24,043 nt of DNA. It comes from a virus. The stretch is from the IMG/VR virus record IMGVR_UViG_3300017783_000209, positions 1 through 24,043 of that record. One strand, written 5' to 3'. Below the pieces are notes generated by a model, which worked only from the letters and a program-made list of their open reading frames with translations, was not told where the DNA came from and ran no database searches. Below are positions 965-24,043 of the stretch, in pieces; within the stretch, counting starts at the first letter, position 1; each line of letters begins with the position of its first letter. A program made the translations under genes and the position numbers.

Positions 965-973
965 TTTAGCTGT

Positions 974-4655: not shown

Positions 4656-4680
4656 ACTTTTTGCAGTTGATAAACCTGCA

Positions 4681-7234: not shown

Positions 7235-7237
7235 GAT

Positions 7238-8139: not shown

Positions 8140-8142
8140 TGC

Positions 8143-8562: not shown

Positions 8563-8586
8563 AAGATAATACTGTAAGAGGTAATT

Positions 8587-8998: not shown

Positions 8999-8999
8999 T

Positions 9000-9434: not shown

Positions 9435-9438
9435 TGAA

Positions 9439-10542: not shown

Positions 10543-10656
10543 TTGAAAAAAGGTAAATGGTGTAGTTGATCCTGGGCCTTACACCTCTGGCGGGAGGATG
10601 CCCAGTTTGATGCGGGGTTTGCAGGCTCTGGCACGGTTAAACGGCTCGCGCTCCTG

Positions 10657-10806: not shown

Positions 10807-11372
10807 TAGGAAAGAGCTGCATACATTGATTTCTTGAAAGGAACCCTTCGGGGCTTGTGGGCCTTAGGCTTCCTCTCTTCGGCCTTTGCCTCGCGATATC
10901 GCTTCTTCAAAAGGGCAAGCATTGCCTCTAAAATTTTGCGCCACTCAGCGGCAGACATTGCGGGCGTAAAAATATAATCTTCATGTCCATTACGGGTTAC
11001 GTCATAAGAGAAGCCTTTGTACTTGCCTTTATGAAGTGATCTGTCAAGTATAATGAAATCTGACGTTTTGCCGTCTCGGTTATAACGCATACGTTTTGCC
11101 GTCTTGTTTTTATGATAATCAAGATATCTTTTTATGTTAAATATTTGCAACTCAATCGCTCTTGAGCCCTCAAGCAAAATGGTTCGCTCCTCTACTGAGC
11201 GACGGAGCACTTTAGGGAACTCTGCTTCAGCCTCACCCACGGGCTCAAGTAAGTAAAAACCCATGTGAGCCTGACCATATTCGCAGTCTTTGTAAAAGAC
11301 TTGCTCGTACAGATAAGGATGGTCCTTCTTGAGTTCGATCAAGCAAGCCTTTGTATTGACCGTGCGTTCCAT
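10806..11372 (-). CDS. Hypothetical protein (188 aa)
   Basis: A mixed alpha/beta protein with a basic C-terminal third (RYREAKAEERKPKAHKPRRV). The middle contains HMGFYLLEPVGEAEAEFPKV, IELQIFNIKRYLDYHKNKTA and SDFIILDRSLHKGKYKGFSY. I do not recognise a family or catalytic motif. It directly follows the RecE-like nuclease on the same strand (its ATG sits at the nuclease stop). Helical basic ends and this position suggest a DNA-associated accessory of the recombination module, but that is inference. Confidence 0.7.
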   Translation of the reverse strand: MERTVNTKACLIELKKDHPYLYEQVFYKDCEYGQAHMGFYLLEPVGEAEAEFPKVLRRSVEERTILLEGSRAIELQIFNIKRYLDYHKNKTAKRMRYNRDGKTSDFIILDRSLHKGKYKGFSYDVTRNGHEDYIFTPAMSAAEWRKILEAMLALLKKRYREAKAEERKPKAHKPRRVPFKKSMYAALS

Positions 11373-12202: not shown

Positions 12203-12271
12203 TGAGGGACAGTGTGCATCCACTGGGGGTGTTGCGCGTTGCCCTCACAACATATATGGTAAATCCACCCA
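12203..12271. promoter_or_regulatory. Short divergent control region between nuclease and helicase
   Basis: Only 69 bases separate the divergent genes, so promoters for both should lie here or overlap gene ends. On the plus strand TTGCGC (about 12228-12233), a 17-base gap and TATGGT could form a weak sigma70-type promoter (3/6 and 4/6 matches). An AT-rich ACATATATGGTAAAT patch lies near 12250-12262. The match is poor and I give it little weight. Confidence 0.3.
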
Positions 12272-13654
12272 TTGCAACCCCCTGTATCCCATTTGATTAC
12301 CCTTAGGCCCTATCAGACCTTGGCGATATCTGGGCTGCGCGACTCCTTTAGAAAAGGTCACCGCTCAGTGCTCCTGCAATGCCCAACCGGCGCAGGTAAA
12401 ACGGTCATCTTCTCAGAGATAACCCGCAGCGCAGCAGCTAAAGGTAAGTCCGTTTTTATCCTTGTCCATCGACGTGAACTCGTAAAGCAAGCATCAGCAA
12501 AACTCACAGATGCTGGTGTTCAGCACGGGATCATTTCCGCTGGCTTCGAACCCAGCAACCATCTAGTCCAAGTCGCCTCAGTTCAAACACTCGTAAGGCG
12601 CTTCCACTTGGTTTCAGAGCCAAACCTCATCATCATTGATGAAGCGCATCATGCGGTCGCTGGCTCTTGGCTAAAAATTTCAGACCACTTCGTACACGCA
12701 AAGATTATCGGGGTGACAGCCACCCCAAGCCGTTTAGACGGCAGAGGGCTTGGTTCAGTGTTCGACGCCCTGGTATTAGGGCCATCCGTCGAGCAGCTCG
12801 TAAAGCTTGGCTTCTTATGTCCCCACAAGGTTTTCGCGCCGCCAATAGTGGCGGACCTGTCCACCGTCAAAACGAGAGCAGGTGACTATGCCAAAGACGA
12901 TCTCGACCAAGCGATGGATCGCCCAACGATTACGGGAGACTGCATTGCCCACTATCGCCGTTTGGCTGATGGTCTCCCTGCTATTGCTTTTTGCTGCTCA
13001 ATAAAACACGCAAGCTCTGTCTGTCAGTCTTTCAATGCAGCTGGCTATCGCGCAAAGCTCGTCACCGGCAACATGTCGATGGAAGACAGAGACGAGGCAA
13101 TCGCAGGCTTAGCCGATGGTCGCACTCAGATTCTCTGCTCCGTAGATGTTGTCTCTGAGGGCACCGATGTTCCAGCCGTTTCAGCAGCAATCCTTCTTCG
13201 GCCAACACAATCAGAAGCGCTCTACCTCCAGCAAGTCGGCAGAGTCCTCAGGCCGCAGCCCGGCAAGATCGCAATTGTTCTGGATCACGTTGGCAGTACT
13301 CGCAAACATGGCTTTGTTGATGACCGCCGCCTATGGTCACTCGATTCCAAGCCCAAGCGACAACGCAAAGACGAGCCAGCAGTATCCGTCCGTCAATGCC
13401 CCGTATGCTTCGCAGCTTTTAAGCCACAACCAATCTGCCCATGCTGCGGGCATGAGTTCCCCAACAAAACTCGCACACTTACTCAGCGTGAAGGCGAGTT
13501 AAAAGAGATGCGCCGCGAGGATGTTCGCGAACGCAAAGAGCGCAGGAAAGAGCAAGGCAGGGCGAAAAGCTTGCCTGAACTTCTCGCCTTGGCTGATCGT
13601 TTGGGCTACAAGCGCGGTTGGGCGTACAAAATCTTTTATGGGAGGAAGTATTGA
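12272..13654 (+). CDS. SF2 DNA helicase (DEAH type) with C-terminal zinc-finger (460 aa)
   Basis: Helicase motifs are present in order: Walker A CPTGAGKT (37-44), VHRREL (65-70), DEAH (123-126), TATPSR (149-154), SEGTDVP (295-301) and QQVGRVLRPQ (320-329). After the helicase core come a basic linker and a CPVC...CPCCG cluster (C376, C379, C389, C392), probably a zinc finger, then an Arg/Glu-rich helix and a helical end. Phage helicases of this class unwind or remodel DNA at forks or in recombination. The start is a TTG at 12272 or the in-frame TTG at 12293 just before ITLRPYQ; no ATG exists in frame. It starts the plus-strand replication operon. Confidence 0.88.
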   Translation: MQPPVSHLITLRPYQTLAISGLRDSFRKGHRSVLLQCPTGAGKTVIFSEITRSAAAKGKSVFILVHRRELVKQASAKLTDAGVQHGIISAGFEPSNHLVQVASVQTLVRRFHLVSEPNLIIIDEAHHAVAGSWLKISDHFVHAKIIGVTATPSRLDGRGLGSVFDALVLGPSVEQLVKLGFLCPHKVFAPPIVADLSTVKTRAGDYAKDDLDQAMDRPTITGDCIAHYRRLADGLPAIAFCCSIKHASSVCQSFNAAGYRAKLVTGNMSMEDRDEAIAGLADGRTQILCSVDVVSEGTDVPAVSAAILLRPTQSEALYLQQVGRVLRPQPGKIAIVLDHVGSTRKHGFVDDRRLWSLDSKPKRQRKDEPAVSVRQCPVCFAAFKPQPICPCCGHEFPNKTRTLTQREGELKEMRREDVRERKERRKEQGRAKSLPELLALADRLGYKRGWAYKIFYGRKY

Positions 13655-13689
13655 GGTCCAGTTCTTAAACCCCCGCTTATGCTTGCTGC

Positions 13690-14043
13690 ATGGCCAACAT
13701 CGAGACCAATATCCAGCAGCGGATTCGTCTCGCACTTGGCACACGCCAAGACGTGCGCTTATTTAGGAACCAAGTCGGTCAGCTTCCAGATCCCCGGACT
13801 GGTCGGCCTGTTCAGTTCGGCCTTGCGCGTGGGTCGGCTGACATCGTCGGGTGGAAGACCATTGAGGTCACACCCGATATGGTCGGCCAAAAGCTCGCTG
13901 TCTTCACTTCCATCGAAGTCAAAACATCAACTGGACGATTGACTGGACCTCAGCGAAATTGGATGCATACTGTGCAAACCGCTGGCGGTTTCGCCGGGGT
14001 GGCAAGGTCCCCAGAAGATGCCTTGCAGATTATTTCCGCCTGA
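13690..14043 (+). CDS. VRR-NUC domain nuclease (117 aa)
   Basis: A single-domain VRR-NUC protein. RLFRNQVG (23-30), GLARGSADIVGW (44-55) with the metal-binding Asp, then VFTSIEVKTSTGRLTGPQRNW, containing the catalytic ExK (EVK). It ends AGVARSPEDALQII. Stand-alone VRR-NUC proteins are common next to phage replication helicases and act as structure-specific or Holliday-junction nucleases. It follows the helicase by 35 bases. The context (helicase before, primase-helicase after) points to repair or processing of replication intermediates. Confidence 0.9.
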   Translation: MANIETNIQQRIRLALGTRQDVRLFRNQVGQLPDPRTGRPVQFGLARGSADIVGWKTIEVTPDMVGQKLAVFTSIEVKTSTGRLTGPQRNWMHTVQTAGGFAGVARSPEDALQIISA

Positions 14044-14067
14044 TACCAGGCACTTTGCTTCTTACCA

Positions 14068-16212
14068 ATGCCCGCTCTGTCGCTTGACCTTGCTCAGACC
14101 AAGCAGTTCACTGCTCTTCTCAAAAAACAAAAAGGCCAGCTTCGCCTTCGTGCTTTCTACCCAGCCGGTCATCCCTTCAAGTCCTCAGACTCTGGACGTA
14201 AAGGCGAGCCGTCACGCCCAACCGTAGAAGGTTGGCAGCAAGAAGGTCGCGGTGTTTACGCCGTTATCAACGATGGCGGTGACACCGACTCAGAAATCAC
14301 CGCATGCAGAGCAGTCTTCTGCGAGTGGGACGATCGTCCTAAAGAATGGCAAGTCGATGCATGGAAAACCCTTCAACTCCCGGAGCCGACACTTCAAGTC
14401 GACACTGGTGGCAAGTCAATCCACAACTACTGGATTTTTGACGAGCCCATCTCCGTTGAAGACTGGCGCTCTATCCAAACCAGACTCCTTGATCACGCTG
14501 ATGCTGATCGCTCTTTAAAAAATCCATCTCGTGTGATGCGCCTTCCAGGCACTTTTCACATCGACTCAGATGGCAGTACAGGTGGGCAGTGCAAAATTAT
14601 CAGCGCTGCATCCACCTACTACACCACCAAAGACATAGAGAAAGCTCTTCCCTCTAAGAAGATGCACGAAAAGATGTCTGAGGCGAATCGCTTCAGCGAT
14701 TACAAGCCCAGACCTCTCGATGAAATTCGCGACGCACTATCAAAGGTCCCGTCCCGTAAGCCAGGCACCGGCACTTATCACACCTATCGCAACCTGTTCT
14801 GGGGACTGATCAAAGCCTGCGAGGAAGCAGGTGGCACTGCAGATGACGCTATCTCGATGATGGAGTCCAACTCACCCAGCTGGAAAGGTCTTCGCCAAAT
14901 CGCAAGTTCTGGCGGTGACAAGGTTACGGCTGGCACGTTCTGGTATTGGGCAAAACACAACGGATGGAGACCGCCAACCCCACCGCAGCGCCAGGAGCCA
15001 GACATCCCCGCACTCGCAAAAGCATTTGAATCCGGTGATCTTGAATCAACCGGCGAACGCCTTCAAAAATGGGAAGCTGATCAGCTCCTTAGGTTCTTGC
15101 GCAGCCTCAGCCGTGAATACAGATACAACGTCTTCACCCAACAGATCGAACAAGAAGATGAGGTCGTTGAAGGTATTGAGCGCTTCTATCTAAAGCTTGC
15201 GCAGATGGGAGTCAAGGTCACCAAAGAAGTCTCAATCGATTGCCTCGTCGAAGTCGCGCAAGAGAACAAGTACGACCCAGTCAAGGCATACCTCGAACAC
15301 TGTGCCAACACCGTCGAGCCCACTTACATCGACACGCTCTCCAGCCAATGGCTAAGGCCAGACGATCAGTCCGCAACAGAGCCGACTCTCTACGACAACA
15401 TGATCAAATGCACCCTTATCGCTGCAGTGCGCAGGGTGTTTGAACCTGGCTGCAAATTTGATCAAGCCTGCGTGCTGATGGGTGAGCAGGGTGCTCGTAA
15501 GTCTTCATTTTGGAAGGCTCTGGGAGGGCACTTCTTCTCCGACGCACTTAGAGACATCCAATCCAAAGATGACCTGATGGTTCTGCATCGCAGCTGGATC
15601 ATGGAGTGGGCTGAACTTGATCACATCACTGGCAAAAGACACGCCGGACAGATCAAAGCTTTTCTCTCACAGTCAACCGACATGTTCCGCGTGCCATATG
15701 GCAAAGCAACTGAAGCTTTTCCTCGTCGCGGCATCATCGTTGGTTCGACCAACAGGTCTGATGGCTTTTTGGTGGATGACACTGGCAACCGCAGATTCTG
15801 GGTCATACCAGTTCAAGCAACTCACAAGAATCCGATCAACGTCGATCTGCTGATGAAAGAAGTCGACGCTATCTGGGCGTCTGCTGTTCACGCTTACAAG
15901 AACGGTGAGCCATGCCAGCTCACGATCGAGCAGGAAGAACAGGTCTACAAAGAAAACATCAACTACATGCTCGATAGTCCTTGGCGTTCACCGATCGAAG
16001 ATTGGCTGTCTCAACCTAAAAATAAGTACGTTCCTGTCACTGTTGATTTACTTTTAACCGACGCGGTCGGCAAGCCGGTGGAACGCCAGACCAAGGGCGA
16101 TCAGATGCAGGTTGCGTCCATTCTTAGGGAGCTTGGGTTTAACAGACGCAAAAGTCGCGTGAACGGCAGTCTCAAATGGGTCTACAAACGAGACTCAGAC
16201 CAAGACTCGTGA
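14068..16212 (+). CDS. Primase-polymerase/VapE-type helicase fusion (714 aa)
   Basis: The N-terminal half resembles archaeo-eukaryotic (RepB/prim-pol-like) primases: an acidic pair in RAVFCEWDD (E86, D88), the His motif in GGKSIHNYWIF (about 114-124), and SRVMRLPGTFHID (about 153-165). The C-terminal half is a virulence-associated-E-type SF3-like ATPase. It has a Walker A at about 471-480 (MGEQGARKSS), a Walker B-like WIMEWAEL (about 510-517), KAFLSQSTDMFRVPYGK, a sensor GSTNRSDGFLVDD and TGNRRFWVIPV. The usual Gly before Lys in the P-loop is Arg here (GARKS). Such proteins prime and unwind at phage and plasmid origins. An iteron-like inverted-repeat region starts 12 bases downstream, which supports an initiator or replicative-helicase role. 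Confidence 0.88.
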   Translation: MPALSLDLAQTKQFTALLKKQKGQLRLRAFYPAGHPFKSSDSGRKGEPSRPTVEGWQQEGRGVYAVINDGGDTDSEITACRAVFCEWDDRPKEWQVDAWKTLQLPEPTLQVDTGGKSIHNYWIFDEPISVEDWRSIQTRLLDHADADRSLKNPSRVMRLPGTFHIDSDGSTGGQCKIISAASTYYTTKDIEKALPSKKMHEKMSEANRFSDYKPRPLDEIRDALSKVPSRKPGTGTYHTYRNLFWGLIKACEEAGGTADDAISMMESNSPSWKGLRQIASSGGDKVTAGTFWYWAKHNGWRPPTPPQRQEPDIPALAKAFESGDLESTGERLQKWEADQLLRFLRSLSREYRYNVFTQQIEQEDEVVEGIERFYLKLAQMGVKVTKEVSIDCLVEVAQENKYDPVKAYLEHCANTVEPTYIDTLSSQWLRPDDQSATEPTLYDNMIKCTLIAAVRRVFEPGCKFDQACVLMGEQGARKSSFWKALGGHFFSDALRDIQSKDDLMVLHRSWIMEWAELDHITGKRHAGQIKAFLSQSTDMFRVPYGKATEAFPRRGIIVGSTNRSDGFLVDDTGNRRFWVIPVQATHKNPINVDLLMKEVDAIWASAVHAYKNGEPCQLTIEQEEQVYKENINYMLDSPWRSPIEDWLSQPKNKYVPVTVDLLLTDAVGKPVERQTKGDQMQVASILRELGFNRRKSRVNGSLKWVYKRDSDQDS

Positions 16213-16223
16213 GTCTCGCAAAT

Positions 16224-16421
16224 GTTCCCACCTGTTCCCACCTTGTTCCCCCATCCATAACGCTGAGACCCGTTCCAGCCCAAGGTTGTTCCCACTGTTC
16301 CTACCTATAACCCTTACTTTTATGAATTTAATAAATAGGGGGGTAGGAGCAGTAGAAGGGGGGTTGGGGGCGTTTTGGGAAACTCCTAAGAAAAGGTGGG
16401 AACAGGTGGGAACGTGGGAAC
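16224..16421. other. Putative replication origin: GTTCCCACCT iterons in a long inverted repeat
   Basis: Left side: two tandem GTTCCCACCT (16224-16233, 16234-16243), then degenerate copies at 16245 (GTTCCCCCAT), 16272 (GTTCCAGCCC), 16288 (GTTCCCACT) and 16297 (GTTCCTACCT). Right side, inverted: AGGTGGGAAC at 16394-16403 and 16404-16413, then GTGGGAAC at 16414-16421. The 21 bases at 16224-16244 and 16393-16413 are exact reverse complements. A second, inner dyad pairs 16294-16305 with 16342-16353 (11 of 12). Between them is an AT-rich core (about 16314-16337, with TATGAATTTAATAAAT) followed by G-runs on the plus strand. Iterons, an AT-rich core and the primase/VapE neighbour are the classical signs of an origin; operator use by the ParB-like protein is an alternative. 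Confidence 0.65.
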
Positions 16422-16462
16422 ACCCTGTCTCATGCTCGACGAGCTGACAAGAGAGTGCTACG

Positions 16463-17266
16463 GTGGCACAGCGAATAAAAACTCGAATGAATCAGGTCAT
16501 TGAAGTTGTTAATGAAATGTCGGAACTTGAGGCTCGGCATCTCATCGCTGATATCAAGAAGAACATCACCACAGTTAGGGCGCAAATTTATGAATTAGAT
16601 CGCCGGCAAGGTTGGAAGGCTCTTGGCTATCGCAGCTTCACGGCTTGCTGCATGGAAGAGTTCCCAGAGCTGCATGAGCGGACCATTCGCCGTCAGTTGT
16701 ATGCCGCGCAGATAGAGGACACCCTCAAAAAAGAGTTAGGGCCAGATGGCCCTAAAAAACTGGGTGATACGCCCGAAGCTCATCTTCGTCCTTTAGTTTC
16801 CGTCAAAAACGACGATGAGACCCTTGTCGCTGCTTACTCAAAAGCTCAGGACATTGCCAGGGAAGAAAACCAAGGCAAGCTGACTCAGGAAATTGTCACT
16901 CGTGCGGTTGAGCAGGTTCGGCCTGAATACGAATGGACAGAAGACGAGCTAAAACGCAAAGCCATTGTTGAAGCTGGCGGCACTGTCGTGGCAAACATGC
17001 ACCAAGACACTGACCGGGCGCTGCTCACTTGGGCCAGGAAGACCGACCGCTTTGTTCGCATTGATCGCACTAGCGACTGGGGCAATCCTTTCGAGATGGG
17101 GCCTGACGGTGACCGAGATACGGTCTGTGACTCGTATGAAATTTTTTTTCCGCGAAAGTTCAGCCTCCACAACCGCCTGGACGAGCTGAAGGGCAAGGTT
17201 CTTGGTTGCTGGTGCTATCCCCAGCGTTGCCATGGCATGTACCTAATTCAATCCATGGAGAAGTGA
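16463..17266 (+). CDS. ParB-like N-domain fused to C-terminal DUF4326 domain (267 aa)
   Basis: Residues 1-110 are helical (MSELEARHLIADIKKNITTV, YELDRRQGWKALGYRSFTAC, HERTIRRQLYAAQIEDTL). They resemble the helix-turn-helix-bearing part of ParB/plasmid-type DNA-binding proteins in cyanobacteria and phages. After an acidic linker the C-terminal part matches DUF4326: VVANMHQDTDRALLTWARKT, RFVRIDRTSDWGNPF, ELKGKVLGCWCYPQRCHG. DUF4326 is widespread in phages with unknown function. A GTG at 16463 is used; ATG at 16487 would lose eight residues. The gene starts 42 bases after the iteron region, so the N-domain may bind those repeats. Confidence 0.75.
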   Translation: MAQRIKTRMNQVIEVVNEMSELEARHLIADIKKNITTVRAQIYELDRRQGWKALGYRSFTACCMEEFPELHERTIRRQLYAAQIEDTLKKELGPDGPKKLGDTPEAHLRPLVSVKNDDETLVAAYSKAQDIAREENQGKLTQEIVTRAVEQVRPEYEWTEDELKRKAIVEAGGTVVANMHQDTDRALLTWARKTDRFVRIDRTSDWGNPFEMGPDGDRDTVCDSYEIFFPRKFSLHNRLDELKGKVLGCWCYPQRCHGMYLIQSMEK

Positions 17267-17267
17267 C

Positions 17268-17978
17268 ATGGCTTTGTACGAAGACTGCGTTTGCCTCGCG
17301 CAAGCCCGTTTAATTGAGGGCACAAGAAAGAAGGCACATGTTTGCACTATTGCCCTCCACCGGCCATCTGGTGGTTTCATCCGCCTCTGTCTACCTTTCA
17401 ACTCATCACCTGAGTCTGAGATTCGTCGTTGGGACTTATTCGCTTTTGAGGGCGTTCCAGACAAAAAGGATACAAGGAGAGAGAGCGTCGGTCTGCAGGC
17501 TTTCTTAGGCAAGCACGGCCAAGCCACTAATGGTGAGCGAAAGGCTATTCATAAGCACATTCTCTCAACCTACAAATATGAGCAAGAGATGAATGAAGAA
17601 AGACAGTCAGTCGGCATCTTGCTTTTTGACAAAAACACCGTTGTCTTTGAAACAGGCCCACTTTCCTCAAGGGAAGAGGAGTATCGCCTGATAATGCAAG
17701 ACAAGGGATTGTTTTTCCCGGACCACAAGCTGTATATGACTGCAAAGTCGCAAGGATATCAGTCTCGTCACTTCAAGAAGCAAGTTCTTGAATGGAACTT
17801 CTTTGAAGCGCTACGGAAAGGGCTTGACCCTTTGTCCGCTTTTACTAATTACAAATGCCCTTATGCCATTTTAGGAAACACTACTTACCAAAGAAATGGC
17901 TTCATGATTGTCTCCTTCTTGTCTGCTCCATCAGGTTTTATGTCTTATGCCTGCCAACAACAGCTCTCTTTGATCTAA
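17268..17978 (+). CDS. Hypothetical protein (236 aa), possible OB-type N-domain
   Basis: Starts one base after the previous stop. The N-terminus, VCLAQARLIEGTRKKAHVCT, then IALHRPSGGFIRLCLP and WDLFAFEGVPDKKDTRRESV, resembles the start of proteins described as dual OB-fold-containing, which I only recall loosely. The C-terminal half is helical with FFEALRKGLDPLSAFTNYKC and a hydrophobic patch FMIVSFLSAPSGFMSYAC. No catalytic motif is clear. It is co-directional with replication genes, and its stop overlaps the start of the RHH protein (TAATG). Confidence 0.65.
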   Translation: MALYEDCVCLAQARLIEGTRKKAHVCTIALHRPSGGFIRLCLPFNSSPESEIRRWDLFAFEGVPDKKDTRRESVGLQAFLGKHGQATNGERKAIHKHILSTYKYEQEMNEERQSVGILLFDKNTVVFETGPLSSREEEYRLIMQDKGLFFPDHKLYMTAKSQGYQSRHFKKQVLEWNFFEALRKGLDPLSAFTNYKCPYAILGNTTYQRNGFMIVSFLSAPSGFMSYACQQQLSLI

Positions 17979-18121
17979 TGCCCTCAAAGCTGCCTCGTTT
18001 GAACGTCGTCATGGATCACACTCTCAGGGACTGGATTGAAAAGTCCCGTCGTCCTACCGAATCGGCTGCTGCATTCATAAGAAGAGTCTTGCATGAGCGA
18101 TTAGAGCAGGATCGGTCCTAA
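17978..18121 (+). CDS. Ribbon-helix-helix-like DNA-binding protein (47 aa)
   Basis: An ATG at 17978 overlapping the upstream TAA. The product begins MPSKLPRLNVVMDHTLRDWI and continues EKSRRPTESAAAFIRRVLHE. The short strand (LPRLNVVM) followed by two helices (TLRDWIEKS and ESAAAFIRRVLHERLEQ) is the CopG/Arc-type layout, with the turn at SRRPTES. It is probably a dimeric repressor or partition-associated protein. A longer frame starting at 17855 would read the previous gene out of frame and is not used. Confidence 0.65.
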   Translation: MPSKLPRLNVVMDHTLRDWIEKSRRPTESAAAFIRRVLHERLEQDRS

Positions 18122-18167
18122 GGAGACCCGCTACTGTGGAAAACATGGACCGGCATCGATTGGGTTT

Positions 18168-18896
18168 ATGACACAAGTTTTGAAAGTTGACATCGACGAT
18201 GCAATTAAAAAGCTCAACTTGGTTCAAAGAGCGCAGGTTCCATTCGCTGCCAAGCTCACCCTGCAAAGGCTTGCTAAGGCAGTAACTAAGAAAGACATTC
18301 CTGCACACATGAAGGAGGTCTTCCAAAGCCCAAATAATTTGACACTCAAAAGCCTTAACTACAAGGTGGTTGGTAACTATGAAGTCAAGCTCGATTTCAT
18401 CGATAGCGTCCCCAAGGGCAATGCCCCAACCAACTACTTAGCGCCTGTCACTCGTGGCGTCCAAGGCAACCAGGCGTACGAGACCAAGTTCAGCAGATTT
18501 GTCAAAAAAGCTGGCATCGTTCCCAACAACTATTATCCAATCCCGTTCAAAAGTAATCTTCGTACAAATAAATACGGCAAGCCATCTCAAGGCGAGTACA
18601 GCACAGCATGGAGTCGCCTGCAGGTTGCAGGCTCTCCCGGCAAGCGAAAGGATCGTTATTTTTCTATCCCAGACAACAGGATGCGCGGTGTCAGCAGAAA
18701 GCAGTTGACCTTGTTTGGCTTGTCTGAAGGTATTTACAGAGTAAAAGGAAAGAGCAACCTTCAGCTCTTGTTCACCTACGCAAAACGCCCGCCAACAGTG
18801 CCCAAGATCTTCGACTATTACGGTGTTGTTGGAAAAAAGGTTTCCAAGCGCGCTCCAGGAATTTTCAGAGACGCCTTGCGTCAGGCGCTCAAGTGA
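18168..18896 (+). CDS. Hypothetical protein resembling phage minor tail/completion proteins (242 aa)
   Basis: A basic alpha/beta protein with two helices at the start (AIKKLNLVQRAQVPFAAKLT, LQRLAKAVTKKDIPAHMKEV), then FQSPNNLTLKSLNYKVV and YLAPVTRGVQGNQAYETKFS, followed by RFVKKAGIVPNNYYPIPFKS. The order (Ala/Lys-rich helices, F..P...T...L, a YL.P...G.....T...) is reminiscent of GPZ/DUF6441-type minor tail proteins. That is a loose impression, and its place among replication genes is unusual for a structural protein. The stop overlaps the GTG start of the ligase gene (GTGA). Confidence 0.45.
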   Translation: MTQVLKVDIDDAIKKLNLVQRAQVPFAAKLTLQRLAKAVTKKDIPAHMKEVFQSPNNLTLKSLNYKVVGNYEVKLDFIDSVPKGNAPTNYLAPVTRGVQGNQAYETKFSRFVKKAGIVPNNYYPIPFKSNLRTNKYGKPSQGEYSTAWSRLQVAGSPGKRKDRYFSIPDNRMRGVSRKQLTLFGLSEGIYRVKGKSNLQLLFTYAKRPPTVPKIFDYYGVVGKKVSKRAPGIFRDALRQALK

Positions 18897-19726
18897 ATTA
18901 CGATCGCGACTTACCTTTGCTCTTGTCCTTCATGTCGATCGCTGCTTTGCGCACTGAATTGCGCATGCTTAACAAGTCTGTGCGTAACGCAGACTCCTCG
19001 TATCGCATGGGCGATGCGCGCATGTCTGACATTGAGTTCGACGATCTAGACAGGCTGCGCAGCTTGGTCGCTGATCAGTTGAGGCGAAACGCACCTCATG
19101 CACCTGAGCTTGAGGAAGACGACAGCATTGTTCTGCTGAGCTTGGACAACAAGCCGTTTGAGCAATGGATTGAAGGGTTTGAGGAGAGCACGATCTTTAC
19201 GGTGCAACCCAAGATCGACGGTTGTTCGTTAGCTGTGCGTTATGAGGACGGCGTTCTCGTCGCTGCATCAAAGCGCTGCGGCAGTGATGTCCTTGGCATT
19301 GCACGCAAGGTTGACGGCATCCCTCACACCATTAACGAGCCAGGAGTTTTTGAGGTACATGGTGAGCTGCACGGCTGGGATAAAGACTCCCAGAAGCGTT
19401 CAGCTAAGGCATTAAATGCCAGTGGCACCACCAAAGGACTGCACTTCAGTGCTTATCGCGTTGTCGATGCTGTTGGCCACGAGCTGGCGACATTGCAGCA
19501 CCTGCGAGGGTTGGGTTTTGATGTGCCAGAAACATTGACTTGCAGTGATCCAAGAGATGCTCGGTCCTTGCATGCAGAGTGGATTCTTGGTCGTGTGTTT
19601 GACAGATATCCAACTGATGGCATCGTGGTCAAAGTGCTTGAGCACTCCTTGCAGGATGCGCTTGGCCAATCCAGCGGGGCAAAGCCCTGCCCTAAATGGG
19701 CCTTAGCAATGAAGCACTATGCGTGA
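18893..19726 (+). CDS. NAD+-type DNA ligase reduced to its adenylation region (277 aa)
   Basis: The LigA pattern is clear: DSSYRMGDARMSDIEFDDL in the NMN-binding Ia region, IVLLSLDNKPFEQW (79-92), and catalytic motif PKIDGCSLAVRYEDG with K107. GELHG follows at 157-161 and TDGIVVKV at 241-248. The final motif PKWALAMKHYA (267-277) stands at the very C-terminus. The enzyme therefore stops after motif V and lacks the OB-fold, zinc-finger, HhH and BRCT domains of the roughly 670-residue bacterial enzyme. It may be a minimal phage ligase or need a partner. GTG at 18893 overlaps the previous stop; ATG at 18932 is an alternative. Confidence 0.85.
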   Translation: MNYDRDLPLLLSFMSIAALRTELRMLNKSVRNADSSYRMGDARMSDIEFDDLDRLRSLVADQLRRNAPHAPELEEDDSIVLLSLDNKPFEQWIEGFEESTIFTVQPKIDGCSLAVRYEDGVLVAASKRCGSDVLGIARKVDGIPHTINEPGVFEVHGELHGWDKDSQKRSAKALNASGTTKGLHFSAYRVVDAVGHELATLQHLRGLGFDVPETLTCSDPRDARSLHAEWILGRVFDRYPTDGIVVKVLEHSLQDALGQSSGAKPCPKWALAMKHYA

Positions 19727-19910
19727 AGAGGAATTAATCGAACAGCGTCAGTATGCGCAGCGTGTGCTGATGAACGCTGGGATTCAGCCCGTCAAGGTTG
19801 ATGTGATCAACGGTCGCCTGACTGTGCCTAAGAACCAGCTCACCAAAGCCCGCAAAGTAATTCAGTATTTTGAGTGGCCATTTCTTGTGATGCCACTGAC
19901 TGCGAATTGA
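19719..19910 (+). CDS. Small hypothetical protein (63 aa), last gene before the AT-rich region
   Basis: ATG at 19719 overlaps the end of the ligase gene by eight bases. The product begins MREEELIEQRQYAQRVLMNA and includes VKVDVINGRLTVPKNQLTKA, then IQYFEWPFLVMPLTAN. It could be a helix followed by a small beta-alpha unit. Being directly coupled to a ligase that lacks its DNA-binding domains, it is worth testing as a ligase partner, but there is no motif to support that. No family recognised. Confidence 0.6.
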   Translation: MREEELIEQRQYAQRVLMNAGIQPVKVDVINGRLTVPKNQLTKARKVIQYFEWPFLVMPLTAN

Positions 19911-19913
19911 TGC

Positions 19914-19993
19914 GGGACTTGCAAGGGTTCGGTTTTAGGTATACACAAGAATTTTCAAAAAGGGTGGGGGACTCGCAAGGGGTCGGTTTTAAG
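19914..19993. repeat. Two imperfect 26-bp direct repeats
   Basis: GGGACTTGCAAGGGTTCGGT (then TTTAGG, 19914-19939) and GGGACTCGCAAGGGGTCGGT (then TTTAAG, 19968-19993) differ at three positions and start 54 bases apart. They lie immediately after the last replication gene and open the AT-rich region. No promoter or hairpin explains them; regulator sites, recombination sites or packaging signals are all possible. Confidence 0.6.
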
Positions 19994-20481
19994 GGCTTTT
20001 ACGTTTTCACACACACTCACACACAAAATCTAGTACAAATGTACTATTGAGAAAATGTGTCTCTTATTGATATTGAGACTCATTCTCAATAAGAAAGAAT
20101 ATTTTGCAAAAAATATTAGCGCCTTAAGTAACACAAACTCAAAAAAGTCGATGTAAAAAACGCATCGCAATATTTTTTGACGATGAAAAGAATTTTCTTT
20201 AATTTTCAAGGTTCGTGATGTTTTGCGCTGTTTTAGTTCGTGACACAAACTGCCACGGCGCGTAGCGTTTCGCCGTGCCAACACCGTGCCAACGTGCGAC
20301 GTTTTCGCCTTCTCTCCACGGTCAGGGATCCACGCGGCCGCCAAGGGTGGGGATGGGTCGCGCACGCCGCGCACGCGCACGTAAAACCACCTCAGAAAGT
20401 GGCACACAAGGGCGGGGATCCCGTGAATTTCTGTTATTATTAATTACGCGCACATACGCGCGTTGCATTTGCTACTTGCCC
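19994..20481. other. Gene-free transition region: AT-rich with inverted repeats, then GC-rich
   Basis: No supported gene lies in 19911-20481. The first part is AT-rich (16 G/C of 60 bases in 20101-20160) and carries a CA tract (about 20009-20025). Inverted repeats are TAGTAC/GTACTA (20031-20036, 20041-20046), TATTGAGAA/TTCTCAATA (20045-20053, 20083-20091), CTTATTGA/TCAATAAG (20063-20070, 20086-20093) and an 11-base perfect pair at 20107-20117 and 20169-20179. Within the second pair lies TGAGACTCATTCTCA (20074-20088), a Fur-box-like dyad with one mismatch. From about 20240 the sequence is GC-rich. It has a hairpin CACGGCG/CGCCGTG (20254-20260, 20271-20277), and then TTATTATTAATTA near 20433-20445, which might be part of a promoter for the next operon. 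Confidence 0.6.
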
Positions 20482-20634
20482 GTGAATTCAACCCCTGACC
20501 GTCTCCGGTCCGATCTCGCAGCCATGCGAGACCGACACGACGAGACAGACCGGCGGATCCTCCAGCTGATCGCCGATACTGCCGAACTGGACGCGCGCGT
20601 TTCCGCGATGCTCGCCGAGGATCGGCCCGAGTGA
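20482..20634 (+). CDS. 50-aa helical protein opening the GC-rich operon
   Basis: I use the GTG at 20482 (MNSTPDRLRSDLAAMRDRHD), since the longer frame from 20275 covers the hairpin-rich transition region and encodes an implausible Arg/Gly-rich stretch. The rest, ETDRRILQLIADTAELDARV, is a highly charged heptad-like helix, so a coiled-coil dimer is likely. The stop is ten bases before a hairpin. No family recognised. Confidence 0.5.
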   Translation: MNSTPDRLRSDLAAMRDRHDETDRRILQLIADTAELDARVSAMLAEDRPE

Positions 20635-20643
20635 CAATCAGAC

Positions 20644-20670
20644 AACCGTCCCTAAGCGTGGGGCGGTTTG
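20644..20670 (+). terminator. Hairpin after the 50-aa gene, weak terminator or attenuator
   Basis: AACCGTCCC (20644-20652) pairs with GGGGCGGTT (20660-20668), with one wobble, over a 7-base loop. Only three T residues follow, so termination may be partial. Its position lets it set the level of transcription into the genes that follow. Confidence 0.5.
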
Positions 20671-20746
20671 CTGAATTATCCGGCAGACTCTCAATCAAGC
20701 AGCTGACGCGCTGCTTTTTACCTTTGTTCCCTTGCTCCTTTTAATC

Positions 20747-20986
20747 ATGCTCAGATTCTCGGAATCCACAAACGAGATCACCGGCGCCGTTATGGGCGCC
20801 GTTGGAATCGCCGCAATCTATGGCGGAATCGGGGTCTGTCTCCTCGGCGACATGCGCGGCATGGATATCAGCCTTGCCGGCTGTCTCACGACTAGCGCCG
20901 CCGCCGTTCCGCTGTCCGCCGCCGCCAAGCAGCGCCGCGAAGCTTACGCGGAATTGTGCGCGCAGTACTCCACGCGCCGGGGTTGA
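20747..20986 (+). CDS. Small membrane protein (79 aa)
   Basis: ATG at 20747; an upstream start at 20732 would only add a hydrophobic pentapeptide. Residues about 13-34 (GAVMGAVGIAAIYGGIGVCL) form one membrane helix, and LAGCLTTSAAAVPLSAAA (about 45-62) is a probable second. A charged, Arg-rich C-terminus follows. Codons are GCC/GGC/CGC-rich, unlike genes left of 20,000. The leader has a pyrimidine-rich GTTCCCTTGCTCC segment that recalls the 29-base leader repeat found before two later genes. Function unknown. Confidence 0.6.
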   Translation: MLRFSESTNEITGAVMGAVGIAAIYGGIGVCLLGDMRGMDISLAGCLTTSAAAVPLSAAAKQRREAYAELCAQYSTRRG

Positions 20987-20990
20987 TCTA

Positions 20991-21254
20991 ATGAAAGCCA
21001 TTCATCCCGCTACATCCGACAGCATCCGCCGCGCGACTATTCGCAAGCGTCGCCGCGCCGCTGTCACCCGCGCGTCACTGTTCGGGTTCTCTTTCGCTGC
21101 CTCTGTCTTTGCTCTTTTTCCCTTAGCCAATCAGGCGCAGAAGCACAGCGAGACACAACGCGGCGCCATCGCCGCCGCTGCCCTTATGGGTTCCGTTGTT
21201 TTGGCTGGTTCGTCGCTGATTCTCTCAGCCGCCGCCGCTGATGAGGTTCAATAA
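20991..21254 (+). CDS. Small two-span membrane protein (87 aa)
   Basis: ATG at 20991, four bases after the previous stop. A strongly basic N-terminus (IRRATIRKRRRAAVTR) should face the cytoplasm. Two hydrophobic segments follow: about residues 28-48 (SLFGFSFAASVFALFPLA) and about 62-83 (AAAALMGSVVLAGSSLILSA). The tail is short. The stop overlaps the next ATG by one base. It pairs with the preceding membrane protein in layout, so the two may act together. No family recognised. Confidence 0.6.
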   Translation: MKAIHPATSDSIRRATIRKRRRAAVTRASLFGFSFAASVFALFPLANQAQKHSETQRGAIAAAALMGSVVLAGSSLILSAAAADEVQ

Positions 21255-21580
21255 TGCAGAACATTTCTGCACTGATCGCCGCACCTTTCGCGGCTCTTTC
21301 TTTCGCTCTGCCAGTCCGTCCCGAACCTGCCGCGCTATGGCGTGCGGGCGAGTGGATGACGTGCGCGGAGTTCTCCGAACTACTCTGTGATTGCACGGGC
21401 TGGACTGTTAAGCCTGGCATTGACCCAGACGATTCCGACGGTGTCGGCCACTGGCTCATAGATCCCTCGGGTGATCGCCAGGGCGATATCTGGCCCGGCC
21501 CTGATCTCGACGATCTCCAGCTCTGGGTCGGCGAACGTATCGACGAAGCGCTAAACGCGGCCGATGGCTGCGAATTCTGA
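21254..21580 (+). CDS. Acidic hypothetical protein with hydrophobic N-terminus (108 aa)
   Basis: The ATG overlaps the previous TAA. Residues 1-20 (MQNISALIAAPFAALSFALP) are hydrophobic and could be a signal or a membrane anchor, though positive charge is lacking. The rest is acidic and Trp-rich (GEWMTCAEFSELLCDCTGW, DPDDSDGVGHWLIDPSGD, GPDLDDLQLWVGERIDEALN). Such acidic, Asp/Trp-rich small proteins are sometimes host-interaction or DNA-mimic proteins, but this is only an idea. The stop lies at the first base of the first 29-base leader repeat. Confidence 0.6.
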   Translation: MQNISALIAAPFAALSFALPVRPEPAALWRAGEWMTCAEFSELLCDCTGWTVKPGIDPDDSDGVGHWLIDPSGDRQGDIWPGPDLDDLQLWVGERIDEALNAADGCEF

Positions 21581-21608
21581 ACCCTTATCCCTTGCCCTTG
21601 CTCTCATG
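21580..21608 (+). repeat. Leader repeat, copy 1 (29 bases, ends in a start codon)
   Basis: The sequence starts AACCCTTATCCCTTGCCCTT and ends GCTCTCATG. It is identical to 22125-22153, and in both cases the final ATG is the start of a gene. The upstream gene stops within its first base. It contains no purine-rich ribosome site. Confidence 0.85.
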
Positions 21609-21923
21609 TTTGATCTATTCACTGTTCCCGGCTGCTCGGTTGAGTATCGCGGGCCAACTGACACGCGCGGCTCTCGTTGGGTCGCCGTAATCCGTCGCGG
21701 CCGTGATCGTTCCGACTGTTACCGCGCGGCCTGTCCTTTTGAACAGGGCGCTATTGAAGCCGCGCGCTTAGCTGTTCAGCGTTTCAATGAAAGGGCCGTT
21801 AAATCTGAGTCTGATAAATGGCACGTTTTAGGTCATCCGCTATCTATGGATGGCGGCGACACATACGTCTTCCCAGTTGGCCCGGACTATCTCCGCTCAT
21901 CTGTCGCGTGTTTTGAACAATGA
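21606..21923 (+). CDS. Hypothetical protein (105 aa)
   Basis: I choose the ATG at 21606, since the same 29-base leader ends in the start codon of a later gene. A longer start at 21564 would only translate that leader. The product begins MFDLFTVPGCSVEYRGPTDT and continues with RWVAVIRRGRDRSDCYRAAC, then an Ala/Arg helix and KWHVLGHPLSMDGGDTYVFP. It is a mixed alpha/beta, three-Cys protein without a recognised family. Codons are GC-rich. It overlaps the next gene by four bases (ATGA). Confidence 0.6.
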   Translation: MFDLFTVPGCSVEYRGPTDTRGSRWVAVIRRGRDRSDCYRAACPFEQGAIEAARLAVQRFNERAVKSESDKWHVLGHPLSMDGGDTYVFPVGPDYLRSSVACFEQ

Positions 21924-22126
21924 AAACCGACCCGAAACTAACGGCCGAACAAATCGCGCGCCTGTCTGCTGAGATTCTTAAGTGCCAGCGACTGCTTCGG
22001 AAGCTATGGAGCGACGACGCGCGCCGCGAAGTGCTCGCGCGCCGTCGCACGCTTTACCGGATCATGTACGCGATCCCCCAAGGTGTGCCCGTTCCGATTG
22101 ACTGGCAACCTTGCCCTCACCCTTAA
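21920..22126 (+). CDS. Small helical basic protein (68 aa)
   Basis: ATG at 21920 overlaps the previous stop. The product begins MKTDPKLTAEQIARLSAEIL and continues KCQRLLRKLWSDDARREVLA, then RRRTLYRIMYAIPQGVPVPI. The first 50 residues form a basic helical bundle and the tail is Pro-rich. The stop codon lies inside the start of the second leader repeat. The basic helical shape may suit DNA or RNA binding; no family recognised. Confidence 0.6.
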   Translation: MKTDPKLTAEQIARLSAEILKCQRLLRKLWSDDARREVLARRRTLYRIMYAIPQGVPVPIDWQPCPHP

Positions 22127-22153
22127 CCCTTATCCCTTGCCCTTGCTCTCATG
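22125..22153 (+). repeat. Leader repeat, copy 2 (29 bases, ends in a start codon)
   Basis: Exact second copy of 21580-21608, 545 bases downstream on the same strand. The TAA of the upstream gene overlaps its first two bases, and its final ATG (22151-22153) starts the 361-residue gene. Confidence 0.85.
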
Positions 22154-23236
22154 CCTTCCATCCACCCTTACGCGCCGCGCGGCATTCCTTCCGACGTGGT
22201 CGACCTTATGGCGCGGTTCGGACTGAATGTCCGTGACCTGCTCACCACCGACCGCCAAAACGCCAAACTTAAAAAGGGCCAAGCCATGGCTCGTGCGCTG
22301 ATCTTGCACCATCTCCCGGCCCGTGCCCTGGCTGCTGCTATCACTCCAGACAATGACGCAAACGGCGCCGCGTGTCGTTCTTTCATCCCTTCATTACTTG
22401 AGATCGCCGAACGCGAACGATTGACCGCGCGCGCCATGGCTTGGAACGGTTGCCCGTGGGCTACTGCCGGATGCGGCGGAGATGGTGGCGGCTGTCTCGC
22501 GTTTTCCGGTCATGGCGGCATGGGGCAGACGGTCGCCGCTGCCCGTGGCCGTCGCACGCTTGCCATGCTCAGCTCGTCAGAAAGTTACGGACGTGCGATT
22601 TTCTGGGCCGTGCTCCGTCACCTGCGCGCAGCGCGCCGCGACGGTTTGCCGCTGTCAGTGCGTCTCAGGGGAACCGACGAGGGTCCCGTGATCGGCTGGC
22701 ATCGGTTGCCGGTGATGATCACAAGCGCAGAAGCGCGCAGCATCGCCGACCGTTACGGCGTGGAAACCATGCCGGGAATTCTGCCGATGGGTCAACGCTT
22801 AGACGTGCCTGATCTCTTCGCTTATGAGTACAGCAAAGCGGGAACCGATGGAGCTCTAGGCCTAATCGCGCAGCGCGCCGGGGGCTTTGACATCACTGCC
22901 AGTTTTGCGGCGGATCGCGCGACGGCGTGCCATGACGGACTGGCAGCACTTCAGAACGGTTTCCGCTTGGCTGTGCCCGTTGCCGTGAAACGCGGCGATC
23001 CTCTGCCGGTCGGCCTGACGTTGAGCCACGGCCGCGAATCGATCAGCGTCCCGTGTGTCGACGGCGACCGCCATGATCACCGCTGGCTCGATCCGCACGG
23101 TGTCGCCGTCATGCTGCGCACTAAGCGCAGCGCCGGAAGTGTGGCCAGTGTGGCGGATTTGTTCAGTTTGCAGCCACACGACAGGCCGCAGCGGCTGGCA
23201 GATGGTGTCGTTCGTCTGGCGTGGGCTGAGCCATGA
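22151..23236 (+). CDS. Phage protein with CPW-x4-C...C-x3-SGHG motif (361 aa)
   Basis: The protein has a recognisable pattern that I know from actinophage and some other phage genomes (related to DUF7227-type proteins). It includes DRQNAKLKKGQ near residue 34, CPWATAGC (C101-C108), then a third Cys (C115) and LAFSGHG (116-122). VAAARGRRT (128-136), FAYEYSKAG and a C-terminal CVDGDRHDHRWLDPHG follow. The Cys triad may bind a metal, and a TIM-barrel-like fold has been suggested to me by layout only. No reaction is established. It is by far the largest gene in the GC-rich operon. The stop overlaps the next gene by four bases (ATGA). Confidence 0.7.
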   Translation: MPSIHPYAPRGIPSDVVDLMARFGLNVRDLLTTDRQNAKLKKGQAMARALILHHLPARALAAAITPDNDANGAACRSFIPSLLEIAERERLTARAMAWNGCPWATAGCGGDGGGCLAFSGHGGMGQTVAAARGRRTLAMLSSSESYGRAIFWAVLRHLRAARRDGLPLSVRLRGTDEGPVIGWHRLPVMITSAEARSIADRYGVETMPGILPMGQRLDVPDLFAYEYSKAGTDGALGLIAQRAGGFDITASFAADRATACHDGLAALQNGFRLAVPVAVKRGDPLPVGLTLSHGRESISVPCVDGDRHDHRWLDPHGVAVMLRTKRSAGSVASVADLFSLQPHDRPQRLADGVVRLAWAEP

Positions 23237-23523
23237 TCGCGCGTTACTGGCACCCGCACGCCCTGCGCCGTCCCATGCGAGAGATCGCCGCGCGCTACCC
23301 CGTCACCTATCGCAAGGTCGGAGAGGCCATGACTGCGCAAGGTTTTGACGTTGACCTATGCGGCGCTGATCTGTCGGCCGCTGAGTCCTTCCGGCTGTTC
23401 GTCGCGATCCTCGCAGCGATGCCGCCGGATGTTGTCCCTTATGGCTCCATGGGAGACGAGACGCCATGGGGCCGAATTGATTGGTTGCCTTTCCTTATAA
23501 GCCTGCAGCGCGGCGACACCTAG
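23233..23523 (+). CDS. Hypothetical protein (96 aa), last gene of the GC-rich operon
   Basis: ATG at 23233 overlapping the previous stop by four bases. The product starts MIARYWHPHALRRPMREIAA, then RYPVTYRKVGEAMTAQGFDV, DLCGADLSAAESFRLFVAIL and WGRIDWLPFLISLQ. The N-terminal half is helix-turn-helix-like (REIAARYPVTYRKVGEAM). That could mean a winged or HTH DNA-binding protein, but it is not a clear match. A classical terminator follows 25 bases after the stop. Confidence 0.6.
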   Translation: MIARYWHPHALRRPMREIAARYPVTYRKVGEAMTAQGFDVDLCGADLSAAESFRLFVAILAAMPPDVVPYGSMGDETPWGRIDWLPFLISLQRGDT

Positions 23524-23548
23524 CACCACAGCCACTAACTAGACACCG

Positions 23549-23573
23549 AACGGCCCCGCGTGGGCCGTTTTTT
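23549..23573 (+). terminator. Rho-independent terminator ending the GC-rich operon
   Basis: AACGGCCC (23549-23556) pairs perfectly with GGGCCGTT (23562-23569) over a 5-base loop, and the T-run extends to 23573. It closes the whole 20482-23523 transcript. Confidence 0.9.
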
Positions 23574-23820
23574 ATGCTGTTTTATCGCAGCTGCGCCGAG
23601 GACCGCCTGAGACGGGCCGGGCATGCTGCCCGGCAGGCTGACCCCTAAGCGCGACGAGACAGGCCTTCAGGGCGCCCCTAGGGGTGTGTTTTGCTGTGCC
23701 GTGCTGTTCTGACGCGCTATCGGGCACGAAAGCAGGGCAGCAGGGCAGCAGGGCAGGGCAGCAGGGCAGCGGCCGCGCACGCGGCGGCGACAATCTGCCA
23801 AGGTCGGCCCGTAAATGTGG
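23574..23820. other. GC-rich gene-free spacer with hairpins and a short tandem repeat
   Basis: No gene is supported from 23524 to the end of the window. This part holds a 7-bp perfect hairpin (GCCGGGC/GCCCGGC, 23616-23634), the palindrome CCCCTAGGGG (23675-23684) and a GCAGGGCA tandem array. The array has three units at 23732-23755 and another at 23761-23768 after a shorter GGGCA. A NotI-type GCGGCCGC (23769-23776) follows. Composition is still that of the GC-rich operon. Confidence 0.7.
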
Positions 23821-24043
23821 TTTGTAGATTAATACAAACTAAAATATATTTAAGCTAACACGAATTAATAATTCCTAGCGATTGAAGCTAATAAATAGTA
23901 GCTGTTATTTGTTATTTAAGCTATTTATAATAAATAGCAATCGTTAAGTAGTAGCTTACATCGACAGTCGTAGGAATTGTTTATATGTTGATGCTAACAA
24001 AAGGGTCCTTCCTGGCTGTGCGTTTGTGTTCCCTCCAGATCGG
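23821..24043. other. AT-rich gene-free region with nested inverted repeats
   Basis: Composition drops sharply (12 G/C of 60 bases in 23881-23940). Inverted repeats are GTTTGTA/TACAAAC (23820-23826, 23833-23839), AATTCCTA/TAGGAATT (23870-23877, 23971-23978) and CGATTG/CAATCG (23879-23884, 23938-23943). The 19-base perfect palindrome GCTATTTATAATAAATAGC (23920-23938) lies within the second. AAGCTA occurs near 23852, 23885 and 23918. I see no coding frame or clear promoter. The nested symmetry suggests an origin, a protein-binding array or a structured junction of the GC-rich block. Confidence 0.6.

Follow-up and report, generated by a model that had tools for sequence, protein, structure and literature searches.

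The GC-rich block at the right of the window (the whole 24,043-nt stretch analysed) is the right-terminal arm of a phage genome, lying between an NAD-dependent DNA ligase gene and cos/TerS and carrying an operon with a GP88-family gene. It is a recurring gene module of viruses infecting picocyanobacteria, the host of one of its two phage lineages (lineage A, below) being a presumed one. Taken together, the evidence makes it probable that this cyanophage arm is an old, exchangeable GP88 module whose left border is under host LexA/Fur-like control.

Composition and genes of the right arm

A first-pass annotation of the same DNA had placed a composition step at 20,240–23,820, and an independent segmentation recovered it at nearly identical limits (20,252–23,811). 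The GC content of this island was 0.616 vs 0.500 over 1–20,000, and no 3,560-bp stretch to the left of position 20,000 exceeded 0.531. Both borders were AT-rich, as annotated (0.312 over 20,001–20,250 on the left; about 24% in the right border and 0.323 over 23,812–24,043), and contained the record's lowest-GC 230-bp windows. The reported shift in codon choice was also seen, GP88 being more GC-rich than the other genes at all three codon positions (0.69/0.55/0.66 against 0.56/0.42/0.52). In all 78 related loci compared, GP88 was richer in GC than the remainder of the locus, and in 66 of 72 it also surpassed each window of equal size taken outside the island.

A plain GC-rich donor is expected to give an excess mainly at the third codon position. 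Because the excess in GP88 was equal at all three (+0.15, +0.15 and +0.16; 72 loci), codon bias of a donor was rejected as too simple an explanation. A GC drive acting near the genome end was disfavoured because AT-rich GP88 islands occupied the same cos-proximal place (loci L008 and L161) and because the islands of the second lineage (lineage B) lay near nrdA, away from any mapped end. The AT-rich islands of L008 and L161 had small-gene families in common with the GC-rich islands.

As shown in Table 1, the block carried its own plus-strand operon of eight consecutive ORFs followed by a terminator-like hairpin, both as annotated. The ligase gene upstream of the island was kept in relatives. 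Island borders were set by script, and the many minus-strand island ORFs, apparent antisense artefacts, were ignored. Three sigma-70-like sites were found in the left-border region against 1.9 by chance, a weak signal. A family scan of nine block ORFs detected no integrase, transposase or other mobility gene, and no long direct repeat (att duplication) was found flanking the block. The window contained no tRNA and no Rfam match, and a search of NCBIfam returned nothing useful.

Table 1. Features of the right part of the window
Feature	Position	Strand	Remarks
NAD-dependent DNA ligase-like gene	18893..19726	+	phrog_3869, E 6.7e-23; last named replication-arm gene
Two GGGACTYGC...CGGTT repeat copies	19911..19991	+	repeat D4; head of left border
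AT-rich left border; presumably promoter and operator of the island operon	20001..20250	.	31% GC
LexA box AGTACAAATGTACT	20032..20045	.	exact match to cyanobacterial consensus
Two weak sigma-70-like promoter matches	20047..20100	+	overlap the Fur-like box
Fur-like palindrome TGAGACTCATTCTCA	20074..20088	.	1 mismatch
50-aa coiled protein gene	20482..20634	+	homologue in L004, 54%; GTG start picked by eye within ORF 20275–20634
Small ORF of island operon	20748..20987	+	no family match
Small ORF with hydrophobic stretches	20991..21254	+	relatives in L085, L160
Small ORF, phrog_35755	21254..21580	+	E 6.4e-5; relatives in L085, L086
Small ORF	21606..21923	+	family in 7 lineage-A islands; repeated CCCTTGCCCTTGCTCTCATG leader precedes start
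Small ORF	21920..22126	+	relative in L160
GP88 (PF17338), main island gene	22151..23236	+	three invariant Cys
Small ORF	23233..23523	+	57% identical relative in L008, there outside the island
Intrinsic-terminator-like hairpin	23548..23570	+	ends operon
AT-rich right border	23812..24002	.	precedes cos region
Predicted cos region, GGGTCC... to right physical genome end	24003..24043	.	end column common to eight related contigs

Conserved place, genome end and exchange

A search for the same block in other phages, as proposed in the first-pass annotation, found GC-rich GP88 islands in two phage lineages whose terminases are unrelated (12 of 82 loci were without lineage assignment), lineage B being S-CBS4-like. 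Many phages were syntenic with the same composition profile, an outcome that the annotation itself had set as refuting a transferred cassette. In lineage A, GP88 lay 2.4–5.1 kb past the ligase (nine distinct phages with both visible) and 0.3–0.8 kb ahead of TerS (8 of 8 with TerS visible); in lineage B it lay 1.5–4.2 kb ahead of nrdA (39 of 39 with nrdA visible). Composition steps at one point could suggest an assembly chimera of two organisms, a caveat of the annotation, but the order primase–ligase–AT gap–GC-rich GP88 block was the same in independent contigs and the junction with these flanking genes recurred in independent metagenomes, making the chance of a chimera practically negligible.

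The right end of the window (an IMG/VR record), the only one of its ends visible, fell within 2 nt of a homologous end column common to eight related contigs. Three relatives of 55–58 kb had the same 9–13 nt at both ends (13 identical nt in G029 and G031; in G036, 9 of about 12 nt were exact); they were three of the seven lineage-A contigs with both ends compared, the other four ending elsewhere. Judged from the sequences, these shared terminal nucleotides are cohesive (cos) ends. The AT-rich borders are best read not as insertion scars but, on the left, as a regulatory region and, on the right, as the cohesive genome end. The block would be the right arm of a ~55–58 kb cyanophage with cohesive ends, in which a rightward operon of small genes and a GP88-family gene is set between the replication genes and cos, and the AT-rich right border would lead to the packaging end.

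The lineage-A GP88 proteins of GC-rich type formed one clade (support 100/99), and their divergence between phages was about that of the neighbouring ligase. Recent transfer is unlikely because this clade is a single, old one. Across the ligase and the gene that follows it, the DNA of L006 and L008 was 80–82% identical; the two had nothing in common over the island (64% vs 37% GC) and matched again at the cos end. This clean swap between GC-rich and AT-rich versions indicated that the module is exchangeable. Of the proposed transferred cassette, a unit with definite borders that can be exchanged whole stood, but recent transfer did not, given the single GP88 clade and its ligase-like divergence. 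A satellite or integrating element was not supported either, no integrase or other mobility gene having been found in the block. That a mobile cassette or satellite was recently dropped into the window's phage is very improbable: the sharp composition step and the exchange between L006 and L008 would fit such an event, but the well-supported clade, the fixed place in two lineages, the lack of a mobility gene and a bacterial genome home limited to two MAG contigs argue against it. The module would be an old resident of its lineage, swappable whole for versions of other base composition.

Synechococcus phage S-CBS4 (NC_016766) was ~85% identical in DNA to the lineage-B contig L128 around RNR and TerL, but its deposited record was without the island, and the two ends of that record fell at the island entry and exit points of L128. 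Either S-CBS4 is genuinely without the island or its record is gapped there. The Synechococcus siphophages S-LBS1 and KBS-S-2A resembled the window in the DNA of the primase and of the ~16.5 kb gene, and the replication proteins of S-LBS1 were relatives, but the GP88 island was not seen in either record.

The GP88 protein and its possible chemistry

The annotation had recognized a Cys-motif family of actinophages in the block, and this proved to be GP88 (PF17338). The window protein matched the profile with 25.2 bits (gathering cut-off 24.4) over residues 94–174 only, i.e. the middle of the protein. All 44 aligned members matched PF17338 at E ≤ 0.01, L006 being the sole one under the cut-off (22.7), and three Cys were invariant among them. 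GP88 of L104 matched 253 phage records, with Mycobacterium phages making up 237. Fold matches of GP88 in BFVD, at E 4e-13 and below 1e-6, carried the name Gene product 88 domain-containing protein. The window protein thus resembled GP88 of Mycobacterium and other phages in its profile match above the cut-off and three invariant Cys, and the actinophage relatives also lay near the right genome end (e.g. at about 50.4 of 53 kb); it differed in belonging to its own GC-rich subfamily, 25–28% identical to the classical type. The family was reached only via an alignment (A1): a single-sequence scan of viral contigs with the window protein gave no match, tblastn against phages and plasmids gave none at E 1e-5, and no near or distant DNA match of the block was found in phage and plasmid collections.

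No match to GP88 was found among PDB sequences, and Foldseek of the GP88 model against PDB gave nothing at E ≤ 0.001. In two GP88 models (window and L008), radical SAM enzymes topped the VIA list, accounting for all five distinct entries with Z ≥ 5 for the window and for eight of the nine with Z above 5 for L008. The best Z of this radical SAM/partial TIM barrel likeness was 6.3 and 6.8 in the two models, below the noise line of 8. GP88 also differed from radical SAM enzymes in that the CX3CX2C cluster motif was absent (C-x6-C-x6-C in the window, C-x5-C-x3-C in L008) and the Pfam radical SAM model was matched by no GP88 member. The structural models suggest that GP88 chemistry may be of radical-SAM type.

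Palindromes of the left border

The inverted repeats annotated at both borders exist but were modest in general, the meaningful ones being the LexA-type and Fur-like palindromes on the left. In the 24 kb of the window, the box at 20,032 was the sole match to AGTACWNWTGTACT at up to 2 mismatches, and the Fur-like box at 20,074 was the sole match at up to 3. An unbiased palindrome listing picked out the TAGTAC and TATGCG palindromes. After removal of near-copies by identical 60-bp GP88 stretches (leaving 64 loci, or 57 with left border), and counted as non-independent events in loci that remain interrelated, TAGTAC-N4-GTACTA had 48 copies, spread over 28 of the 64 left borders (43 kb in total), vs 1 in 675 kb elsewhere, AGTAC-N4-GTACT 55 vs 1 (0.005 expected from Markov simulations) and TATGCG-N6-CGCATA 27 vs 0. 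In 1.04 Mb of control loci without detected GP88, exact LexA sites still numbered 5 and exact Fur sites 2; L015, L032, L044 and L049 may show the same border in truncated or GP88-less relatives. The LexA, Fur-like and TATGCG motifs were all absent from 7 of 16 lineage-A left borders, the near relative L085 included. GGGACTY..CGGT-like repeats were present in the left borders of both lineages (lineage A, 10 of 16; lineage B, 12 of 31).

We know of no regulator matching TATGCG-N6-CGCATA, and TGAGAATNATTCTCA, which we take to be the Fur site form of other bacteria, may not be that of the cyanobacterial host. The Anabaena FurA consensus (PMC4005646) is an AT-rich 19-mer having only the ATTCTCAATAA half in common with TGAGAATNATTCTCA. 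The 20,032 box, upstream of the operon, was an exact match to the LexA consensus of the host group; as given in PMC3091678 for cyanobacteria, the recA/lexA LexA boxes of Synechococcus are of AGTAC-N4-GTACT-like form.

The AT-rich left border would be the control region of the island, with putative host LexA operators and Fur-like boxes in many relatives and a single site of each kind, the Fur-like one imperfect, in the window. Host stress regulators would most likely keep the operon repressed until an SOS response or a changed iron state, brought on by infection or stress, releases it.

The palindromes could instead be sites of a phage protein or a replication origin, resembling LexA and Fur sites by chance or mimicry, as might be suggested by the third family (TATGCG-N6-CGCATA), which matches no regulator that we know of, and by the arrays next to AT-rich DNA, which resemble origin repeats. 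We consider this unlikely: two separate motif types fit host regulators, the LexA type matching the published consensus (PMC3091678), and the near relatives L101 and L104 differ in dominant type.

Some phages carried many copies per genome (eight Fur-like boxes on the left and eight on the right in L101; six LexA-like boxes on the left in each of L104 and L142). Such arrays might be decoys that titrate host LexA/Fur after phage replication, unlocking host SOS and iron genes and not the island operon. The boxes in right borders, away from the operon start, and the site number and spacing that vary among relatives would also fit decoys, but we regard these as improbable, for boxes are few or absent in most borders, the window carries just one of either type, and early in infection a single genome would supply too few sites.

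Control of the operon by host regulators, the preferred reading, resembles that in GIL01, in which a phage operon is reported to be SOS-controlled and phage genes to be tied to host LexA (PMC6182141); it differs in being read from sites only, in involving several regulator types and in concerning phages not known to be temperate. In a literature search, mostly outside subscription journals, no paper turned up on the GP88 island, on LexA/Fur sites in cyanophages or, by accession, on PF17338.

Genomic islands that stand out in composition are usually read as fresh foreign DNA. The odd composition described here recurred at fixed positions in about 80 phage contigs, drawn from two unrelated lineages and with GP88 identity down to ~40%; since it persists through such divergence, something maintains or renews it. 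The comparison with L128 suggests that the S-CBS4 reference genome may be missing the GP88 module. We propose, tentatively, that two unrelated lineages of picocyanobacterial siphophages carry an exchangeable module of GP88 and small genes, kept distinct in composition, with a border that gathers operator arrays for several host stress regulators (LexA, Fur-like and a TATGCG type); through it, a phage of lytic type may read or titrate the DNA-damage and iron state of the host and run an Fe-S enzyme from a new radical-SAM-like family. Should the border sites prove functional, cyanophages of abundant picocyanobacteria would be connected to the SOS and iron regulons of their hosts, and there would be an initial clue to the chemistry and control of a phage gene that is very widespread.

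The GC-rich island and its recurrence

The shift in base composition that the first-pass annotation had reported between 20,240 and 23,820 was real and sharp (see table); left of the GC-rich island, the GC fraction of every 3,560-bp stretch stayed within 0.53. The plus-strand operon and the terminator claimed for this block were also supported, as its eight ORFs read as one rightward operon closed by a terminator-like hairpin. The large gene of the island encoded GP88 (PF17338; phrog_1617 at 2.6e-22). The left 20 kb carried a phage lysis gene and a replication/recombination set (endolysin, dCTP deaminase, ThyX-like, RecT-like, exonuclease VIII-like, helicase, VRR-type nuclease, primase-helicase and NAD ligase). 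The window is the entire IMG/VR record, and its DNA similarity pointed to Synechococcus siphophages KBS-S-2A and S-LBS1.

Features of the window by position
Feature	Position	Observation
Left part	left of 20,000	GC 0.50
Inverted repeat GTTCCCACCTGTTCCCACCTT	arms 16224-16244 and 16393-16413	perfect, 21 nt; in gap 3′ of primase gene
phrog_1924 match (minor tail protein family)	18168-18896	within replication arm, adjoining ligase
AT-rich left border	20,001-20,250	GC 0.31
Candidate LexA box	20,032	exact; unique in 24 kb
Fur-like box	20,074	one mismatch; unique in 24 kb
GC-rich island	20,252-23,811	GC 0.62
Repeated leader, two copies (97%)	21577-21608; 22122-22153	32 nt, pyrimidine-rich, ending in ATG; each before an island gene; without Shine-Dalgarno sequence
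Right border	beyond 23,811	GC 0.32
Last seven letters	24037-24043	AGATCGG

An assembly chimera, which the first-pass annotation had named as an alternative to exclude, was contradicted by contigs of other samples, which showed the same order of primase, ligase, small gene, AT-rich gap and GC-rich GP88 island. A profile search yielded 80 viral contigs and, with near relatives, 82 loci were analysed. Among the 78 loci of the GC-rich type, GC of GP88 was higher than that of the rest of the locus in 78/78, and among the 72 testable ones it surpassed all windows of equal size outside the island in 66; two of the six exceptions were from a 62–63% GC phage. Island medians over all loci were 2.6 kb in length and 0.67 (vs 0.49) in GC. 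The GP88 subfamily occurred in just two bacterial-genome records, both MAG contigs.

Exchange of the island in two phage lineages

Twenty loci, including the window, belonged to lineage A (S-LBS1-type TerL phrog_15, ligase, primase) whereas lineage B, which is S-CBS4-like (TerL phrog_2, ribonucleotide reductase), comprised 50; the other 12 lacked the length needed for assignment. The island's place was constant in each lineage, 5′ of TerS in A and 5′ of nrdA in B. The S-CBS4 reference record (NC_016766) ends and begins exactly where its close relative L128 enters and leaves a 6.9-kb stretch with the GP88 island (L128:6968-13881), and may be without this part.

Two related contigs, L006 and L008, were 80–82% identical across ligase and the next gene, and similarity resumed in the final 57–65 nt at the cohesive end (cos). 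Their islands (64% GC in one, 37% in the other) had nothing in common except a 77-nt stretch at the left edge. The AT-rich island of L008 was matched by L161, and small-gene families were common to AT-rich and GC-rich islands. These results indicated that the module was exchanged whole at this place, its composition travelling along.

In a GP88 tree, 17 GC-rich lineage-A proteins formed a single clade (100/99) nested among lineage-B proteins, indicating that GC-rich GP88 entered lineage A once and then stayed. Three AT-type proteins formed another clade (L008 and L161 of A, L163 of B), so this type was also common to both lineages. Divergence of the window GP88 from its relatives was about that of ligase (GP88 vs ligase identity 61% vs 46% against L085, and 38% vs 36% against L006). 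Thus, the proposed transferred cassette held as regards whole-module exchange, but the GC-rich type was not newly acquired in the window. The GC shift was of equal size at the three codon positions and extended to non-coding DNA; together with the existence of both GC-rich and AT-rich versions, this favours recurrent donor exchange over a single selective force as a possible reason for the separate island composition.

The right border and genome end

Eight contigs (L085, L087, L089, L091, L092, L105, L006 and L008) ended at one homologous column, ~40 nt 3′ of GGGTCC, and six further contigs continued through it into the TerS side. Since the window stopped within 2 nt of this column, its right end was considered the physical genome end. 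Four other lineage-A contigs examined at their ends had termini elsewhere. Both ends of the relatives G029 (58,260 bp) and G031 (55,495 bp) carried identical 13 nt, and those of G036 (56,266 bp) had 9 exact nt in common, then one mismatch; judged by sequence, these terminal repeats have the appearance of filled-in cohesive ends. The window's last seven letters are identical to the start of a common Illumina adapter. Such an ending would likewise be consistent with a fixed DNA end, and a few bases at the terminus of the record may not be genomic. Tandem 26-nt repeats were seen at a contig end (G030 ends, L178:1-3500 and L179:1-1134), near the island's left border in L090/L091.

Left-border sites, GP88 and predicted control of the operon

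All gapped palindromes, without motif choice, were listed for 64 left borders (43 kb) and 675 kb elsewhere. TAGTAC-N4-GTACTA was present in 48 copies in 28 loci, vs one elsewhere; TATGCG-N6-CGCATA in 27 copies in 19 left borders, vs none elsewhere, and restricted to lineage B and unplaced loci (e.g. L128, L122 and L103); and TGAGAA-N3-TTCTCA in 12 copies in left and 11 in right borders, vs three elsewhere. The second main border motif, distinct from the TATGCG type, resembles Fur boxes of other bacteria. Exact LexA-type, Fur-like and TATGCG forms were observed 55, 9 and 27 times, vs 0.005, 0 and 0.005 in simulations that preserved the dinucleotide composition of the borders; 81 loci without detected GP88 (1.04 Mb) held 5, 2 and 0 sites.

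The TAGTAC palindrome equals the cyanobacterial LexA consensus AGTACWNWTGTACT given in PMC3091678, where boxes of this form precede Synechococcus recA and lexA. The Anabaena FurA site AAATAAATTCTCAATAAAT (PMC4005646) has ATTCTCAATAA in common with the window's Fur-like site. The probability of an exact LexA box arising by chance in the window's 350-bp border is ~5e-5, and a close LexA and Fur-like pair recurs in L004, L015 and L032.

When distinct loci possessing a left border were counted, at least one of these motif types (three in all) occurred in 9/16 of lineage A, 27/31 of B and 9/10 unplaced (LexA type alone, 7/16, 20/31 and 7/10). None was found in the left borders of seven lineage-A loci (the near relative L085, and L087, L088, L089, L092, L105 and L008), so the sites were frequent, not universal. 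The left border is a predicted regulatory zone.

Two independent GP88 models were confident (pLDDT 89.9 and 85.0). Foldseek detected no solved relative of them. A second structure aligner ranked radical SAM enzymes top for both, namely PFL-activating enzyme, anSME and lipoyl synthase (Z 5.1–6.3) for one and EpeE, QueE, TigE, viperin and Cfr (Z 5.4–6.8) for the other, values within the range attainable by unrelated folds. Neither the standard radical SAM cysteine motif nor, by Pfam scan, a radical SAM domain was found in GP88, and the modelled likeness is a lead, not membership. Three invariant cysteines behind the first barrel strand would fit a metal or Fe-S site.

The sites, their position and their conservation were observed, and a LexA-controlled operon released on damage is the most likely reading. 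The island operon would be held under host LexA on entry or during infection, with a Fur-like regulator acting in addition in many relatives. Upon DNA damage or degradation of the host, LexA would be cleaved and the operon released; the main product of this operon may be an Fe-S enzyme.
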